Notes under the pieces: generated by a model
Databases searched by the model: none
What the model saw: only the letters and a program-made list of their open reading frames with translations
What the model was told of the DNA's origin: nothing
Shown here: positions 38,756 to 44,633 of the stretch, one piece after another
How the letters are laid out: every line of letters begins with the position of its first letter
Numbering within the stretch: position 1 is the stretch's first letter
Translations under genes and position numbers: made by a program
Assembly (NCBI RefSeq): GCF_002307355.1
Contig: NZ_CP017481.1
Location: 186,001-250,000 of the forward strand
Source: Pectobacterium polaris
Lineage (GTDB): Bacteria; Pseudomonadota; Gammaproteobacteria; Enterobacterales; Enterobacteriaceae
Direction: 5' to 3'
DNA length: 64,000 nucleotides

Positions 38756-38764
38756 TCATTCCGT

Positions 38765-38792
38765 GGGCAGGTTTTCTCTGGTAAACCTGCCC
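38765..38792 (+). terminator. Hairpin after hemW
   Basis: GGGCAGGTTT-TCTCTGGT-AAACCTGCCC is a perfect 10-bp stem nine bases after the hemW stop, with ATTACTTCTC following. It probably ends the yggS-hemW transcript. Confidence 0.75.
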
Positions 38793-38946
38793 ATTACTTC
38801 TCACCCGATTTCTCCTTTTGCAATGCTTACAGCGCTTATGTCGAGCCGTCTCCCTTTTCCATCACACTCCGCTTGCCCGTAGCGCGGAAATCCTTTTTCC
38901 TTGTACTGGACGACGATTTCGTCTTTAAGTACGCTACGTGCTTCTA

Positions 38947-38963
38947 GTAAGAATAAATCTTAC
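38947..38963 (+). promoter_or_regulatory. Palindrome upstream of parDE, probable autoregulatory operator
   Basis: GTAAGA-ATAAA-TCTTAC is a perfect 6-bp inverted repeat ending 18 bases before the parD start. ParD-type antitoxins bind such palindromes to repress their own operon. No direct evidence beyond symmetry and position. Confidence 0.5.
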
Positions 38964-38981
38964 ATCTGAGAATCGGGAGGC

Positions 38982-39245
38982 ATGATGGCCAGAACCATGA
39001 CAATTGACCTTGGAGATGAACTTCGCCATTACGTGGAATCGCTGGTGGCATCTGGTGATTACCGCACACAAAGTGAAGTCATTCGGGAAGCGCTGAGAAT
39101 GCTACGGGAAAAACAGGCGGAGTCAGATCTGCAAACGCTGCGTCATTTACTCGCTGAAGGGATAAACAGCGGAGAGCCACAGGAGTGGAATAAAGATGAG
39201 TTCTTGCAAAAAATCAGAAACAGGACGCGAACAGCCGCCCGATAA
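38982..39245 (+). CDS. parD: Antitoxin of the ParD/CopG ribbon-helix-helix family
   Basis: An 87-residue protein with the ribbon-helix-helix pattern MTIDLGDELRHYVESLVASGDYRTQSEVIREALRMLREKQ (residues 6-45) typical of ParD, and a flexible acidic C-terminal part that wraps the toxin. The ribosome site GGGAGG precedes tandem ATGs at 38982 and 38985. It overlaps the following toxin gene by 50 bases. Confidence 0.9.
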   Translation: MMARTMTIDLGDELRHYVESLVASGDYRTQSEVIREALRMLREKQAESDLQTLRHLLAEGINSGEPQEWNKDEFLQKIRNRTRTAAR

Positions 39246-39534
39246 AATCAAGCTAACACCGCTGGCGCAACGCGATCTGGAAGCAATTTACCTCTACGGT
39301 TTACAGCATTTTAATGAGGAAAGCGCCAACACCTATCTGGAAACCATCGAACACGCGTTTACCGCTATCAGGCACAACAAGATAGGCATCGAACGCAAGG
39401 AACTTGGGCCGGGCTTGTACTCATTTCCCGTCGTCAGACATACGCTATTTTTTCTGTACGAAACAGATAGCATCATTGTTGTTCGAATACTTCATCAGTC
39501 GCAGGACATTGTGCGGCATCTTAAGTGGCTATGA
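39196..39534 (+). CDS. parE: Toxin of the ParE/RelE superfamily
   Basis: A 112-residue toxin. The core KIKLTPLAQRDLEAIYLYGLQHFNEESANTYLETIEHAFTAI...ERKELGPGLYSFPVVRHTLFFLYE...IIVVRILHQSQDIVRHL has the ParE layout. ParE proteins inhibit DNA gyrase. The ATG at 39196 gives a 50-base overlap with parD; the first 17 residues are not part of the conserved fold, so a later alternative start codon is possible. The pair borders the AT-rich island and may stabilise it. Confidence 0.9.
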   Translation: MSSCKKSETGREQPPDKIKLTPLAQRDLEAIYLYGLQHFNEESANTYLETIEHAFTAIRHNKIGIERKELGPGLYSFPVVRHTLFFLYETDSIIVVRILHQSQDIVRHLKWL

Positions 39535-40024
39535 GCCCTTTTCAGCGGCCATAAATAGCATTAGCTAAGACTTGAGCTGACAGTTTTCGCGGACAGAACA
39601 CAATCAAATCTGACAGGCTGTAATGAGCAGGAACGGAAGTTCACAATTGTTCTAACAACCGATTCAGGAATTACTAAAAGTGGAGTATGTTAATCAATAG
39701 AGAACAGGTCAAAATGGTTAATCGTACTCGACAAACTATATTTTTATTAATAAAAATCCCATTTAAAATAGACAAATACATTTACGATAAAAATATAAAT
39801 CCATATATATTTCGATGAAAATTGATTGCAATAAAAGGCACAATAAAGTAATAACTTAATTTCCTCATGTATAAAATTACAATTAAAGTAAATATTATTT
39901 TGACTCGTCAATCTGTATTTTTGAAGAGTTGGCGTTGGATTTTTTTTGTGGTATGGTATTTATTACCATCAATTAAATGAGTTCATTCTAATGAATGATC
40001 TATCTTTATCACAGGATGTTAACT
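39535..40024. other. AT-rich left flank of the accessory island
   Basis: 490 bases without a credible gene. Composition changes from balanced to strongly AT-rich at about 39690. Just before the next gene are two short inverted repeats, ATGGTA-TTTAT-TACCAT (39953-39969) and TTCATT-CTA-AATGAA-like (around 39982-39996), which may be operators. No tRNA end or obvious attachment site was found. Confidence 0.5.
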
Positions 40025-41296
40025 ATGGAAATGAATAATAGTGGTGAAAAATACGATTTAATTACAACCCTACAATATGTTGGTTCCTCCATTAATCGAA
40101 CTGAGGCTTTGCGTCGATATACTGAAAAAAAGGATTTTTTAAATAAATGGAGATTCATTTATGCTGACGAATCCCAAAATGGTCCTTTCAAATTAAGAAG
40201 AATGACATTCGATGAAAAATGTTTTATTTCTACTATTTTTCGTGGAAACTCCCTTTGGATTATTGATGATGATGTAGTTTCCAATACTGAAACCTTAACA
40301 TTTAAAATTGGAATGGGAACTTTTTTGGATTCAAATGCTGCAAGCTATATCCGTTCACTAGCATATGAGGAAAAACCTACGAATGACGTAGTTAGTAATT
40401 GTATTACTATGGCTAAAAATATCGATTTTGATGAAATCAAAAATTTTAACCCTTACTTATACTTATTTGAAAATCAGCATAATAAGTCAGAAAAAAGCAT
40501 TGAGAAAGTAAGAGAGACAATTAGTGCAGTTATTGCTATTGAAATGATGAATAAAAATTTGAGTCTAGGTCTAGTATGGGGTGAAGAATTTAGGAGTAAA
40601 TATTCACAGGACGCCAAGAGAAAAGCAGATATTTTATTAAGTAAATTCTATACTGATCTAGAGATTGGCAGCATTTCAAAAATTGATTATTTAACCGATG
40701 TCATGGAGTTGATGCTAATTAAAACAAAACTAATTGAGTATGGTTCCAATCGCTCACCGGAGAATAAGTTTGAGGAACTAATGAGTGTGGCAAACAGTGA
40801 TTTATCTATGTTTATGTTTCGAGAGTTAATTATTTGTGCAGACATTCTTTTTCGAAGCAATAAAACACAACTTTCTCAAAAACTACACAGTTTGCAAAAC
40901 AATAAAGATCCATTAAGTTTAATCAGGAATTGTGCAGGAGATCTCAGCATGGTAAGAATGATGGACTTCCTTACAAATTCAATTCCAGATTGTAATGGTT
41001 CTGCCTTTTATGTCGCTAATATTGTTACATTTGACAAAGACGTAATGGATATTCTCAAAGTTACTGAAGTGAATGCTATTGCACTGCATAAAGAGTCTCA
41101 TATTATTCATGTAATTTTCAATACTGAAATTCAAAATTGGTTGACTGAAAAACTGGGAGAAAAACGACTTCAGAGGTTAGCGCCCTTACAGACATTTAAT
41201 GCTTTTGACTCAAGATATAAAAATAGAGGTTATTCACATATTAAGCAGCAACTTATTAATGACCGTAAGAAGTTGACTCAGCTATTGAAAAAATGA
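40025..41296 (+). CDS. Unrecognised 423-residue protein with a possible PIN-like nuclease fold
   Basis: I do not recognise the family. The protein is soluble, mostly helical by appearance and Asn/Lys/Ile-rich because of its AT-rich codon use. Segments resemble the acidic motifs of PIN-domain RNases: FLDSNAASYI (D102), RELIICADIL (about 267-275), GDLSMVRMMD (D306, D314) and IVTFDKDVMDIL (D337, D339). This is a by-eye suggestion. It is convergent with the nuclease/reverse-transcriptase unit and shares its composition, so it probably arrived with it. The ATG at 40025 follows AGGATG; the frame is open ten codons earlier. Confidence 0.6.
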   Translation: MEMNNSGEKYDLITTLQYVGSSINRTEALRRYTEKKDFLNKWRFIYADESQNGPFKLRRMTFDEKCFISTIFRGNSLWIIDDDVVSNTETLTFKIGMGTFLDSNAASYIRSLAYEEKPTNDVVSNCITMAKNIDFDEIKNFNPYLYLFENQHNKSEKSIEKVRETISAVIAIEMMNKNLSLGLVWGEEFRSKYSQDAKRKADILLSKFYTDLEIGSISKIDYLTDVMELMLIKTKLIEYGSNRSPENKFEELMSVANSDLSMFMFRELIICADILFRSNKTQLSQKLHSLQNNKDPLSLIRNCAGDLSMVRMMDFLTNSIPDCNGSAFYVANIVTFDKDVMDILKVTEVNAIALHKESHIIHVIFNTEIQNWLTEKLGEKRLQRLAPLQTFNAFDSRYKNRGYSHIKQQLINDRKKLTQLLKK

Positions 41297-41515
41297 TGAT
41301 TTTAGCACCAGATAATAACCGAACTATTTAGACTTATGGAATACGGCTTTAATTTTTATTGTATAACACTCACTCTTGGCTTGTAGCGGTCAACCAAAGT
41401 GACCTCTGGTCAGCTAAGAGCGAGAAGCGGAAATTAACATATCTGTTAAAGCGGCCAAATTTAGCCATCCACTACAGGCTGCGAAGGCATAGCACTCATA
41501 CTCATTTCGTAGAAT

Positions 41516-42271
41516 TTACTCTCCTAATTTGTATGCATAATCACCCACAATTGACGAAAACAACTCCAACAACTCTAACTTAGTTCTTCCAGAAGCTGCT
41601 ATGCTAACTAATTCATTGAAATCAATTTCAATGTATTTGTTTGCTCTAGGGTTCAATAGAAGACCTGTCTTCCATTCATCCGCACCACCCTCAATTGAGG
41701 ATGAGAAACTCAATAGCCAGTAAATTAAAATCTGCCGGTAATCAGAAGACGAAAAATTTCTATTTGTGCATTTTACTTCGATCAGCCGCTGGCCGATTGA
41801 GAAATCTCCTTGACCTTGTGCTATCCATTGAAATCCAGGAATGATTGGAGACCTAACTACATTACCATCACTCCATCCTTCACTCAGGTATCTTATTGAT
41901 TTTATTATATTAGTTGCAGTTTGGTTAGCTATTTCAATCTCAATATCTGATAAATTATCGGGTAAAACTGCATCAAAATACCTTGATTGCCGCCTCAGGG
42001 CGATAGACAAACACTCATTCCAATCTTCATTTTTTTCTTCAAGCATTTGCTCTGCTCTTACATAGGCAACTTCAAATAGCATAGCTGCATTTGTATCTAT
42101 TCCTGCCAACATACTTTCATCAATAATCGTACAGCCGGGTATAGGTTGTGCCTCACGATTGAGATGTGCAACGATTGCCGGTAGCAATTGTGGAAATAAC
42201 AAATCACAGATACCGGGAATATCTCGCGCTACAGTTCTGGGATCTTTGACAGGTAACCTTAAAAATCTCAT
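41516..42271 (-). CDS. PD-(D/E)XK-type nuclease candidate coupled to the reverse transcriptase
   Basis: A 251-residue protein of no named family that I can recognise. The middle shows the restriction-endonuclease-like core: GDFSIGQRLIEVKC gives D156, E165 and K167 (D-x8-ExK), and DYRQILIYWLL adds the helix with Q180 and Y184 often seen in PD-(D/E)XK enzymes. The following KTGLLLNPRANKYIEID strand is also common there. The N-terminal 120 residues are helical. The gene starts inside the reverse-transcriptase stop (ATGA overlap), so the two are translated together. As effector of a defence system it could cleave DNA or RNA; that is inference. Confidence 0.72.
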   Translation of the reverse strand: MRFLRLPVKDPRTVARDIPGICDLLFPQLLPAIVAHLNREAQPIPGCTIIDESMLAGIDTNAAMLFEVAYVRAEQMLEEKNEDWNECLSIALRRQSRYFDAVLPDNLSDIEIEIANQTATNIIKSIRYLSEGWSDGNVVRSPIIPGFQWIAQGQGDFSIGQRLIEVKCTNRNFSSSDYRQILIYWLLSFSSSIEGGADEWKTGLLLNPRANKYIEIDFNELVSIAASGRTKLELLELFSSIVGDYAYKLGE

Positions 42272-43914
42272 TTATTCTCAGCCCCTTGGCACCAATTAAT
42301 AAATATTTCACAAAATGATGTTTTTCCTTTTTGTTCAATTCCTAATGACCAAGAGTTAGGTATTGATTTTTTTACTTGATCCCTAAAATGCTTTCCGTCA
42401 TCACCAAATTTATAGGATGCGAGCCAAAGTATTCTTTGTACTTCCGGTGTCAATTTTGACCACTTATTTCTCTCAGAAACGAATGAAGGTCTATCTTTCC
42501 AATTTCTTATACAATCAAGACACGCTCTTTTAATTGTTTCAGATGAGCTTTCATTTAATAAACTATGAACGTAAGCAGCTCGATTATTTGTTCGAATTAC
42601 TCTTAGAGAACGTAAATAATGCAAACAGTTCGCTTCTGGTAGCAGTAGATGCTCAGAGTGCACAACAATATCATCTACCATCCTATCAAGCATTTGATAG
42701 ATAGAAGAATACCGCTCATCATTCCTAATAGAAATCACACCTTTAATAATTGTAGAAAATGAACTTCTAAAGGAATGTAAATTTTCTGGAGAGAGTAATG
42801 TCCTACATAACTGTAATGCTAAAGCTGGCTCATGAAGTTTTAATGTTCTACTTATTTGATTAACTAAGAAAGTGTCTGGCTGACTTTTATGGATCTCTAA
42901 ATCAAGTAAGGCTTGTACATTTAGTTTCTCGACAGTTTCAACTAGTTCATCATAATCAGAAACAGGATTGTCTGAATAGGGGTCAAAATGTAAGTCAATT
43001 TTTTTTAGTTTACTAGATTTATCATCATCAACAAACAATTGTGTATAAACAAAGTTTTTATAGTGTTGGGCTTTTAAAATTGTTGTTTTAGTTCTGTTTA
43101 ATGACAATCCATAATCTGCCAAAGCGTTCGAAAGAATTGAAATAGCACGATACGCTTCAGCTTGATCATTGGCAATAATAGTAAAATCATCCACATACCT
43201 ATGCCACTTAAGTTTTGATGATGTCAAAAGTTGGTCAACTGAGGTCATTAGCAACTCGGCTAAAACTCTTGAGCATTGCCCTCCGACCGGCAAGCCAAAT
43301 GATCTACCAGCTGACAACTGACTTAATAACCTATCTATTTGAGTTGCAACTGTAGAACCTTCACCAAATAAATCATTAATACAATTCTCGATACGATGAT
43401 GATAAATGTGCTCGTAAAAGCTTGATATATCCGTTTGGATAACAACAGCCCCGTCATTAATTAATGCTGCATCATTAATTGTTGCTTCTTTATATGCCCT
43501 CCATGACTTGTCTCTATCAAATAAGTTCTCACCAGTTTCTACGTAACGATATGAGTGTGCATTTGGACTTCTTTTTGATTCATTTATTTCTGCAATCGCG
43601 ATAGCCAGACCATTAAGATATATATTCCAAAATGGATGTATCTTTGTAGAAATTCTAAAGCCGCTTGCACCAGTTGGCGAAAGCAATCTCTCCGAGTAAA
43701 CCTGAATTCCATTCAAAGAATTTCTTGCATTCGTTTTGCCATCTTTTTCAAGCCTTTCAAAGAAGTCAAAAGCCATATTTGCTATCTGCGTTTTTGAATC
43801 TGAAATGAAAACTGTATCGATATCAAAAGGCAACATGTCATTGTCGCCGTGAGCGCCAACATCTTCAATAGCTCTTATAAAGTGTTCAAGTTTCACTGTA
43901 TTCATCATCCCCAC
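42268..43914 (-). CDS. Reverse transcriptase of the defence-associated (UG/Abi-like) kind
   Basis: A 548-residue protein. RT motif A is VVIQTDISSFYEHI (D162), motif B GLPVGGQCSRVLAELL (about 208-222) and motif C YVDDF (240-244, D242/D243); motif D/E-like LSLNRTKTTIL follows near 271. All catalytic aspartates are present, so it should be active. The region after about residue 320 is a helical repeat-like domain with no maturase or endonuclease domain, unlike group II introns. Retron RTs are shorter (about 300-400), and no msr/msd-like RNA was seen. It is coupled to a nuclease gene by a 4-base overlap and is AT-rich against its surroundings. ATG codons at 43914, 43908 and 43905 compete as the start. 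Confidence 0.87.
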   Translation of the reverse strand: MGMMNTVKLEHFIRAIEDVGAHGDNDMLPFDIDTVFISDSKTQIANMAFDFFERLEKDGKTNARNSLNGIQVYSERLLSPTGASGFRISTKIHPFWNIYLNGLAIAIAEINESKRSPNAHSYRYVETGENLFDRDKSWRAYKEATINDAALINDGAVVIQTDISSFYEHIYHHRIENCINDLFGEGSTVATQIDRLLSQLSAGRSFGLPVGGQCSRVLAELLMTSVDQLLTSSKLKWHRYVDDFTIIANDQAEAYRAISILSNALADYGLSLNRTKTTILKAQHYKNFVYTQLFVDDDKSSKLKKIDLHFDPYSDNPVSDYDELVETVEKLNVQALLDLEIHKSQPDTFLVNQISRTLKLHEPALALQLCRTLLSPENLHSFRSSFSTIIKGVISIRNDERYSSIYQMLDRMVDDIVVHSEHLLLPEANCLHYLRSLRVIRTNNRAAYVHSLLNESSSETIKRACLDCIRNWKDRPSFVSERNKWSKLTPEVQRILWLASYKFGDDGKHFRDQVKKSIPNSWSLGIEQKGKTSFCEIFINWCQGAENK

Positions 43915-44501
43915 CGACTCATTAATTGCATTTATATTCAGATATAAAAAGTTAACTTATGACAAGATTCATAACTAGGCAAGTTCCTTATTCTCCTTGA
44001 AACTAAAAACTCCTTTTCCTGACTAAAATCCAATACCACTTCAGATATTTTAATTGTTTCAATGATAATAATTTATCTTGTATATTATTTTAAAATATAT
44101 TTTCTAAAGGGAATCATTTTAAAATTCAAGTATGGTAGCCCACTTAATGAAGCAACTGTATCTTAGAACGCGTACAGTCAAGAATCCTCGCTAGCGGTGA
44201 TGGCGGGCAACAACTTCTGACAACTCACTCCCATCACCTACTGACTAACATGTTCCCAGTTGATCAACACATTTTGATGTCAGCAATGTCCGTCCGCTGT
44301 TGGCACAAAACTGCCCGTCAGATTAGATTTATCTCTATGCCGTAACCGTACCGGATCAGGCCAGAGCTAACACACATCAGCCGCAACATAATCTCAAACA
44401 ATATCAGCTGGTTCAGTGCTATCGAGGATTGAATTTTTACCTGCGGTTATGACACAGTAGAAACCTGTCACGCTCTGTTTATCAACAACCTGCGGGTAAC
44501 G
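43915..44501. other. Upstream region of the reverse transcriptase and right edge of the island
   Basis: 587 bases. From 43915 to about 44150 the DNA is AT-rich like the island. After that it returns to the composition of the chromosome, so the island border is near 44150. The AT-rich part precedes the reverse-transcriptase gene and would be the place for its promoter and for a template non-coding RNA, if one exists. I could not identify a convincing structured RNA by eye. 44150-44500 shows no gene; the entericidin promoter must be there. Confidence 0.5.
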
Positions 44502-44504
44502 ATG

Positions 44505-44633
44505 ATGAAACGTATAACAACGATCGTAGTAGCGTTGCTGGTCACAGCAACATTGAGCGGCTGTAACACCACGCGCGGCTTTGGTCAGGATGTGCAGAAG
44601 TTGGGTAGTAAAATCTCCCACGCCGCCAGCTAA
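44505..44633 (+). CDS. ecnB: Entericidin A/B family lipoprotein
   Basis: A 42-residue lipoprotein, MKRITTIVVALLVTATLSGC followed by NTTRGFGQDVQKLGSKISHAAS. The lipobox LSGC and the entericidin pattern NTxRGFGxDxxxxGxxI are clear. Entericidins are small outer-membrane-associated lipoproteins linked to programmed lysis in stationary phase. An ATG one codon upstream (44502) is an alternative start. A strong terminator follows. Whether it is the A or B type cannot be fixed, since no second copy is present. Confidence 0.87.
   Translation: MKRITTIVVALLVTATLSGCNTTRGFGQDVQKLGSKISHAAS

Follow-up and report, generated by a model that had tools for sequence, protein, structure and literature searches.

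A 64,000-nt stretch of Pectobacterium polaris DNA (contig NZ_CP017481.1, positions 186,001 to 250,000; hereafter the window) carries two overlapping genes, for a reverse transcriptase (RT) and a PD-(D/E)XK-type nuclease, which, judging from profile matches, almost certainly constitute a complete antiphage module of the defence-associated reverse transcriptase (DRT) type DRT8, which we take to be equivalent to the RT group UG7. The RT matches the PADLOC Drt8 profile with an E-value of 1.3e-151 and 504 bits, the next family reaching 110 bits and the scores against Drt4 and Drt6 lying far below, whereas the nuclease matches the RTasPDDEXK profile (E = 2.2e-73). A preliminary description of the locus had recognised a defence-associated RT with a PD-(D/E)XK-type partner and had allowed for either a known subtype or a new one; the PADLOC matches support the first proposal and decide the second, in that the pair belongs to the known DRT8 subtype and is not a new one. 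Pfam RVT_1 is detected in the RT at 1.8e-16, and no Pfam family matched the nuclease of the window. The NCBIfam Drt4 model (83.3 bits, cut-off 450), the group II maturase model (67.5 bits, cut-off 300) and St85, the best retron model (50.3 bits, cut-off 235), all remain under their cut-offs on the RT, in keeping with the earlier remark that it lacks intron and retron features. DRT8 has been described with a PD-(D/E)XK domain in part of an earlier publication (PMC12596737), and passages of two reviews state that the type has antiphage activity (PMC13213688, PMC13314766). A portion of a 2014 survey places UG7 in the Abi-related lineage by one method and considers its relationship unclear by another (PMC4244168).

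Both reading frames are intact and share an ATGA overlap, as had been reported for positions 41516–43914, the strand (minus) being absent from that report. The RT comprises 545 amino acids (aa) when translated from the ATG at 43905 or 548 aa from the GTG at 43914; the ATG is the likelier start, because most of the listed relatives are 540–550 aa long. Numbered for the 545-aa form, D159 and the YVDDF motif at 237–241 are the catalytic residues; they correspond to the D162 and 240–244 that had been counted from the GTG start, and D159, D239 and D240 are shared by all 51 aligned RTs. Similarly, D156, E165 and K167 of the 251-aa nuclease, already singled out as its D/E-x-K signature, are invariant, together with Q180 and Y184, in all 42 aligned nucleases. 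Given this identity across both alignments, the catalytic residues are not a chance occurrence.

The two genes are strictly coupled. Protein searches scored 7997 candidates for the RT, of which 1083 are relatives at E ≤ 0.001, and 1073 for the nuclease, with 517 relatives (120 listed in each case), and a scan of genome contigs identified 40 DRT8 loci. The nuclease follows the RT in all 37 loci in which this could be tested; the other three (L037, L039 and L040) have a partial RT gene, with the contig breaking off within it or directly behind it. When the 37 loci are pooled with three plasmid records, four further genomes and the window, the projected nuclease start comes before the RT frame has ended in 44 of 45 loci; only L009, which is frameshifted in both genes, departs from this. 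Pairwise identities of RTs and nucleases are strongly correlated (r = 0.97; 820 pairs, 41 loci), which by itself shows co-inheritance only. The coupling extends to the deep relatives L081, L085, L086 and L094, whose RTs are 26–30% identical to that of the window and also have a nuclease adjoining the RT; the three of these nucleases that were tested (L081, L085 and L094) match RTasPDDEXK at 8e-67 or better.

Not all members of the Drt8 family have the partner. Seven deep relatives (L066, L067, L068, L083, L084, L087 and L088), which match PADLOC Drt8 with E-values of 1e-123 to 1e-156, have no nuclease detectable by BLAST at 1e-5. In the tree of 51 RTs, the presence or absence of the nuclease (43 versus 7, with one row ungrouped) requires a single change with a support of 90; a single gain or loss should be considered provisional, since the tree carries a long-branch warning. 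The underlying RT alignment left out L037, L039, L009, L061 and the duplicate L089, and that of the nucleases L009, L028, L034 and L089, whereas L094 is outside both sets and the tree. The nuclease-less branch is possibly a single-gene system, perhaps deserving a type of its own. A fixed alternative partner was sought among the downstream neighbours of four of the seven loci, which have nothing in common. Genes downstream of nuclease-less loci encode a restriction endonuclease protein of an Argonaute system (L087:3505–4809), AbiEii (L067), a TrwB-like ATPase (L083) and, 1.2 kb away in L066, a NOV_C/PDDEXK protein.

Broken copies further indicate that the loss of either partner need not entail any visible loss of the other. 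The RT frame is open in L028 (Rhizobium) and in L034, a metagenome-assembled genome, and the nucleases of these loci have in-frame stops near residues 59 and 95, respectively; L023 carries a stop near residue 220. Conversely, in L061, a Comamonas plasmid, the RT match begins only at residue 247, past the YVDD motif and just behind an annotated IS3 transposase, and the nuclease is uninterrupted. This small sample, in which assembly errors are possible, speaks weakly against either partner being an obligatory antitoxin.

Structural modelling suggests which kinds of enzymes are brought together. The AlphaFold2 model of the RT (pLDDT 89.6) has helices at 279–544 following the RT core, consistent with the helical C-terminal domain expected from the preliminary description, and this combination of a core with a helical-repeat C-terminal domain is a feature of class 1 UG/Abi RTs. 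The model matches DRT6, DRT4/UG15, AbiK and Abi-P2 over nearly the full length, helical domain included, whereas the match to RTs of DRTs dependent on non-coding RNA (ncRNA), of retrons and of group II introns is mostly confined to the core. We consider it very likely, from these predicted folds, that the RT belongs with those of AbiK, DRT4 and DRT6, in which a helical domain replaces the template strand, so that it most likely carries out untemplated, ncRNA-free synthesis of single-stranded DNA, perhaps protein-primed. It has no tyrosine before residue 70 and, therefore, no positional equivalent of AbiK Tyr44.

The nuclease core is predicted to adopt the PD-(D/E)XK fold (pLDDT 88.1). Its previous designation as restriction-like is apt with respect to this fold and less so with respect to affinity, because the closest structures (ranks 1–37) are members of the AdnA/MGME1/Cas4/lambda-exonuclease branch and not restriction enzymes. 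The Q-x3-Y motif, here Q180 and Y184, is tied to the same branch. The Fe-S nucleases Cas4, AddB, Dna2 and Exo5 carry a conserved cysteine quartet; among 43 nuclease sequences of the present family, no cysteine is invariant or nearly so. None of these 43 sequences has a credible Pfam assignment (the best E-value, 0.017, is to an unrelated AAA domain), and no sequence of a solved structure matches the nuclease at E ≤ 1. On the predicted structures, the pair looks like an untemplated DNA polymerase combined with a DNA-end nuclease.

The module is mobile. Nearly identical DNA is shared with Tatumella saanichensis (L001; 96.1%, 41406–44314), Morganella morganii (L003; 95.0%, 41418–44308) and another enterobacterial genome (L093; 96.5%, 41409–44292), with homology ending at nearly the same places and with genomic contexts different from that of the window. 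The AT-rich composition, from which recent transfer had been deduced, is evident (36.2% GC versus 53.2% for the rest of the window), yet it is the 95–96% DNA identity with copies found elsewhere, in other genomes, and not AT content alone, that shows recent transfer and mobility among Enterobacterales. In the window, the module is situated in the interval from hemW to an entericidin-like gene (a name assigned by eye). These flanks are ~370 bp apart in L069, and four genomes of the same genus are all devoid of the module: three extend to both flanks and contain other sequences in between, and in the fourth (L100) the available stretch ends before the right flank. Thus, the hemW–entericidin interval is a variable site in the genus.

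The module is rare in the order: by protein comparison, 1 of 394 genomes has it, namely the window's own (E 1e-80). In the family, it was found by the same means in 4 of 392 genomes (E 1e-60); this and the other counts include the window's genome wherever it was drawn. The Drt8 profile (E 1e-60) identified 4 of 398 genomes in the phylum, and 6 of 297 and 6 of 292 genomes in two other orders carry Drt8. The count for the order is a lower bound, because the profile scan revealed diverged Drt8 in the same order (G015, L066). Four plasmid records carry DRT8 at 1e-40, whereas viral contigs yielded no pattern match, phage proteins no match at 1e-20 and Escherichia coli genomes no DNA match by megablast.

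How DRT8 works is described as not established or unresolved in passages of two 2026 reviews (PMC13213688, PMC13314766), and full-text searches of an open-access collection, which leave aside what is in print elsewhere, found no mechanistic study. Three arrangements fit the data: a nuclease effector licensed by the RT, a nuclease that guards against the RT product, and a nuclease that trims this product. We tentatively favour the first, the complete chain being somewhat less than an even bet, and infer that the RT and the nuclease would be co-produced and act as a single machine; upon infection, the RT would make or extend untemplated DNA, this DNA or its complex with the RT would license the nuclease, and the licensed nuclease would degrade DNA from its ends, aborting the infection. 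A precedent comes from an account of DRT1, in which DNA synthesis activates a nitrilase (PMC13275509), and a table in a review lists a Cap17 PNP effector for DRT8 (PMC10952713). The preference over the guard arrangement, a close rival, is narrow and is due to the broken copies. In that alternative, which is plausible but would surprise us somewhat, the RT constantly makes toxic untemplated DNA that the co-translated end nuclease clears, in the manner of RecBCD or ExoI, until a phage inhibits or diverts the nuclease or covers the DNA, whereupon the product builds up and growth stops. It has strong precedent: excerpts of published accounts report that DRT3 is not maintainable without RecBCD components and that DRT9 is synthetically lethal with loss of ExoI (PMC13174585), and that host exonucleases remove the DRT4 product except when phage ORF55 protects it (PMC13314766). 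The fold, that of DNA-end exonucleases, and the strict coupling to this RT branch agree with it as well, but the RT frames of L028 and L034 remain open despite early nuclease stops, and the seven loci of the nuclease-less branch do without a guard. There is perhaps one chance in three or slightly less that DRT8 is, accordingly, a toxin–antitoxin pair whose toxin is DNA and whose antitoxin is its own end nuclease, with phage interference with DNA-end nucleases as the trigger; if so, the control exerted by host RecBCD and ExoI over DRT3 and DRT9 would have become a self-contained mobile module. Trimming of the RT product to a functional length, or its release from a primer, with the DNA itself as effector, appears improbable: it accommodates the same coupling and fold data, and short protein-bound DNA adducts are reported to matter in DRT1 (PMC13275509), but broken nucleases stand beside intact RTs.

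Two further explanations were considered. An ncRNA template encoded in the leader upstream of the RT (43906–44314) is unlikely. The leader does travel with the module, with column identities averaging 92% across four close modules; however, its folding stability does not exceed that of shuffled sequences (z = −0.43 for 235 nt and −0.06 for 409 nt), Rfam has no match in the region, and the RT fold groups with RNA-independent RTs. Furthermore, BLAST aligns it with neither the L002 nor the L004 leader, the RTs of these two loci being ~76% identical to that of the window; among the other loci compared, to which L093 does not belong, only the leaders of L001 and L003 align. L022 and L035 are 70% identical over 210 nt upstream, and one alignment of 85% runs on through their genes, from which we conclude nothing. 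Promoter-like hexamers occur near 44065–44123, the regional count of 13 not being above chance (11.0 ± 3.7 in shuffles). Finally, the rarity of the module in the order might suggest a mobile-element relic that has decayed or become inert, yet neither frame is interrupted, the catalytic residues are conserved, and L001 and L003 hold open copies nearly identical to it, which makes this explanation highly improbable. The reading proposed here, an untemplated polymerase resembling those of Abi and DRT4 with a DNA-end nuclease dedicated to it, sharpens the question about DRT8 to whether the target of the nuclease is the phage, the cell or the product of the RT itself.

The variable site holds additional genes. 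A ParD/ParE toxin–antitoxin pair, identified with Pfam, is located at its left edge (38982–39534, plus strand), and an AT-rich open reading frame (ORF) of 433 aa (39995–41296, plus strand; 31.7% GC) is convergent to the DRT8 pair. A relative of the latter, 44% identical, directly precedes avs3a on a Klebsiella variicola plasmid, another is named api58 in Yersinia pseudotuberculosis, and 40 of 41 database relatives lack a Pfam domain; it is possibly a defence-island gene. It was considered as a third DRT8 component and dismissed, because it is unmatched in all 40 genome-contig loci. Elsewhere, defence-like genes next to DRT8 loci include, besides the Argonaute-system gene of L087, a second RT-like gene (L060:10467–14159), an ABC-three-component set (L059:4166–6935) and a second RT match (L023:3783–4448). 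The outer end of the module (44252–44314) has short matches in 6 of 5426 E. coli genomes; of three such places inspected, two adjoin icd at a prophage end and one lies in a dynamin/patatin gene cluster, and related sequence is also found at this junction in genomes of the same genus without DRT8. A repeated recombination site at this end was rejected: the motif at 44292–44309 occurs exactly once in its own genome, with two one-mismatch places, and forms no repeat family.

Table 1 Features of the DRT8 module and its integration context in the window
Feature	Coordinates	Strand	Evidence or content
DRT8 reverse transcriptase, RT core followed by helical C-terminal domain	42268..43905	−	PADLOC Drt8, RVT_1, AlphaFold2 model
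RT-associated nuclease with predicted PD-(D/E)XK fold, 251 aa	41516..42271	−	PADLOC RTasPDDEXK, predicted structure
ATGA overlap, nuclease start and RT stop	42268..42271	−	
Module leader, non-coding as far as seen	43906..44314	−	Aligned in four close modules
Transferable 2.9-kb module	41406..44314	−	BLAST blocks common to L001, L003 and L093
Variable site, hemW to entericidin-like gene	38756..44555		Holds ParDE, 433-aa ORF and DRT8 module

Compared with DRT8 as defined by its profiles, the copy in the window has the same Drt8 RT and RTasPDDEXK nuclease and no distinguishing feature that we could find. In structure, DRT4 and DRT6 match its RT almost from end to end, with the helical domain included, but they are described as single-gene systems in part of a review (PMC13213688), whereas DRT8 has an added nuclease gene; likewise, AbiK, Abi-P2 and AbiA differ from the present system, which has a partner nuclease. 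The nuclease has the fold and the D, E-x-K and Q-x3-Y residues of the AdnA, MGME1, AddA, Cas4 and lambda-exonuclease domains, from which it differs in being a standalone 251-aa protein tied to an RT and lacking conserved cysteines. The system may be likened to DRT1, in which, according to the portion of the account cited, an RT making DNA without a template is combined with an enzymatic effector (PMC13275509); DRT1, however, belongs to class 3 and has its nitrilase domain fused in one protein, whereas the RT of DRT8 is a separate chain and its partner is a nuclease.
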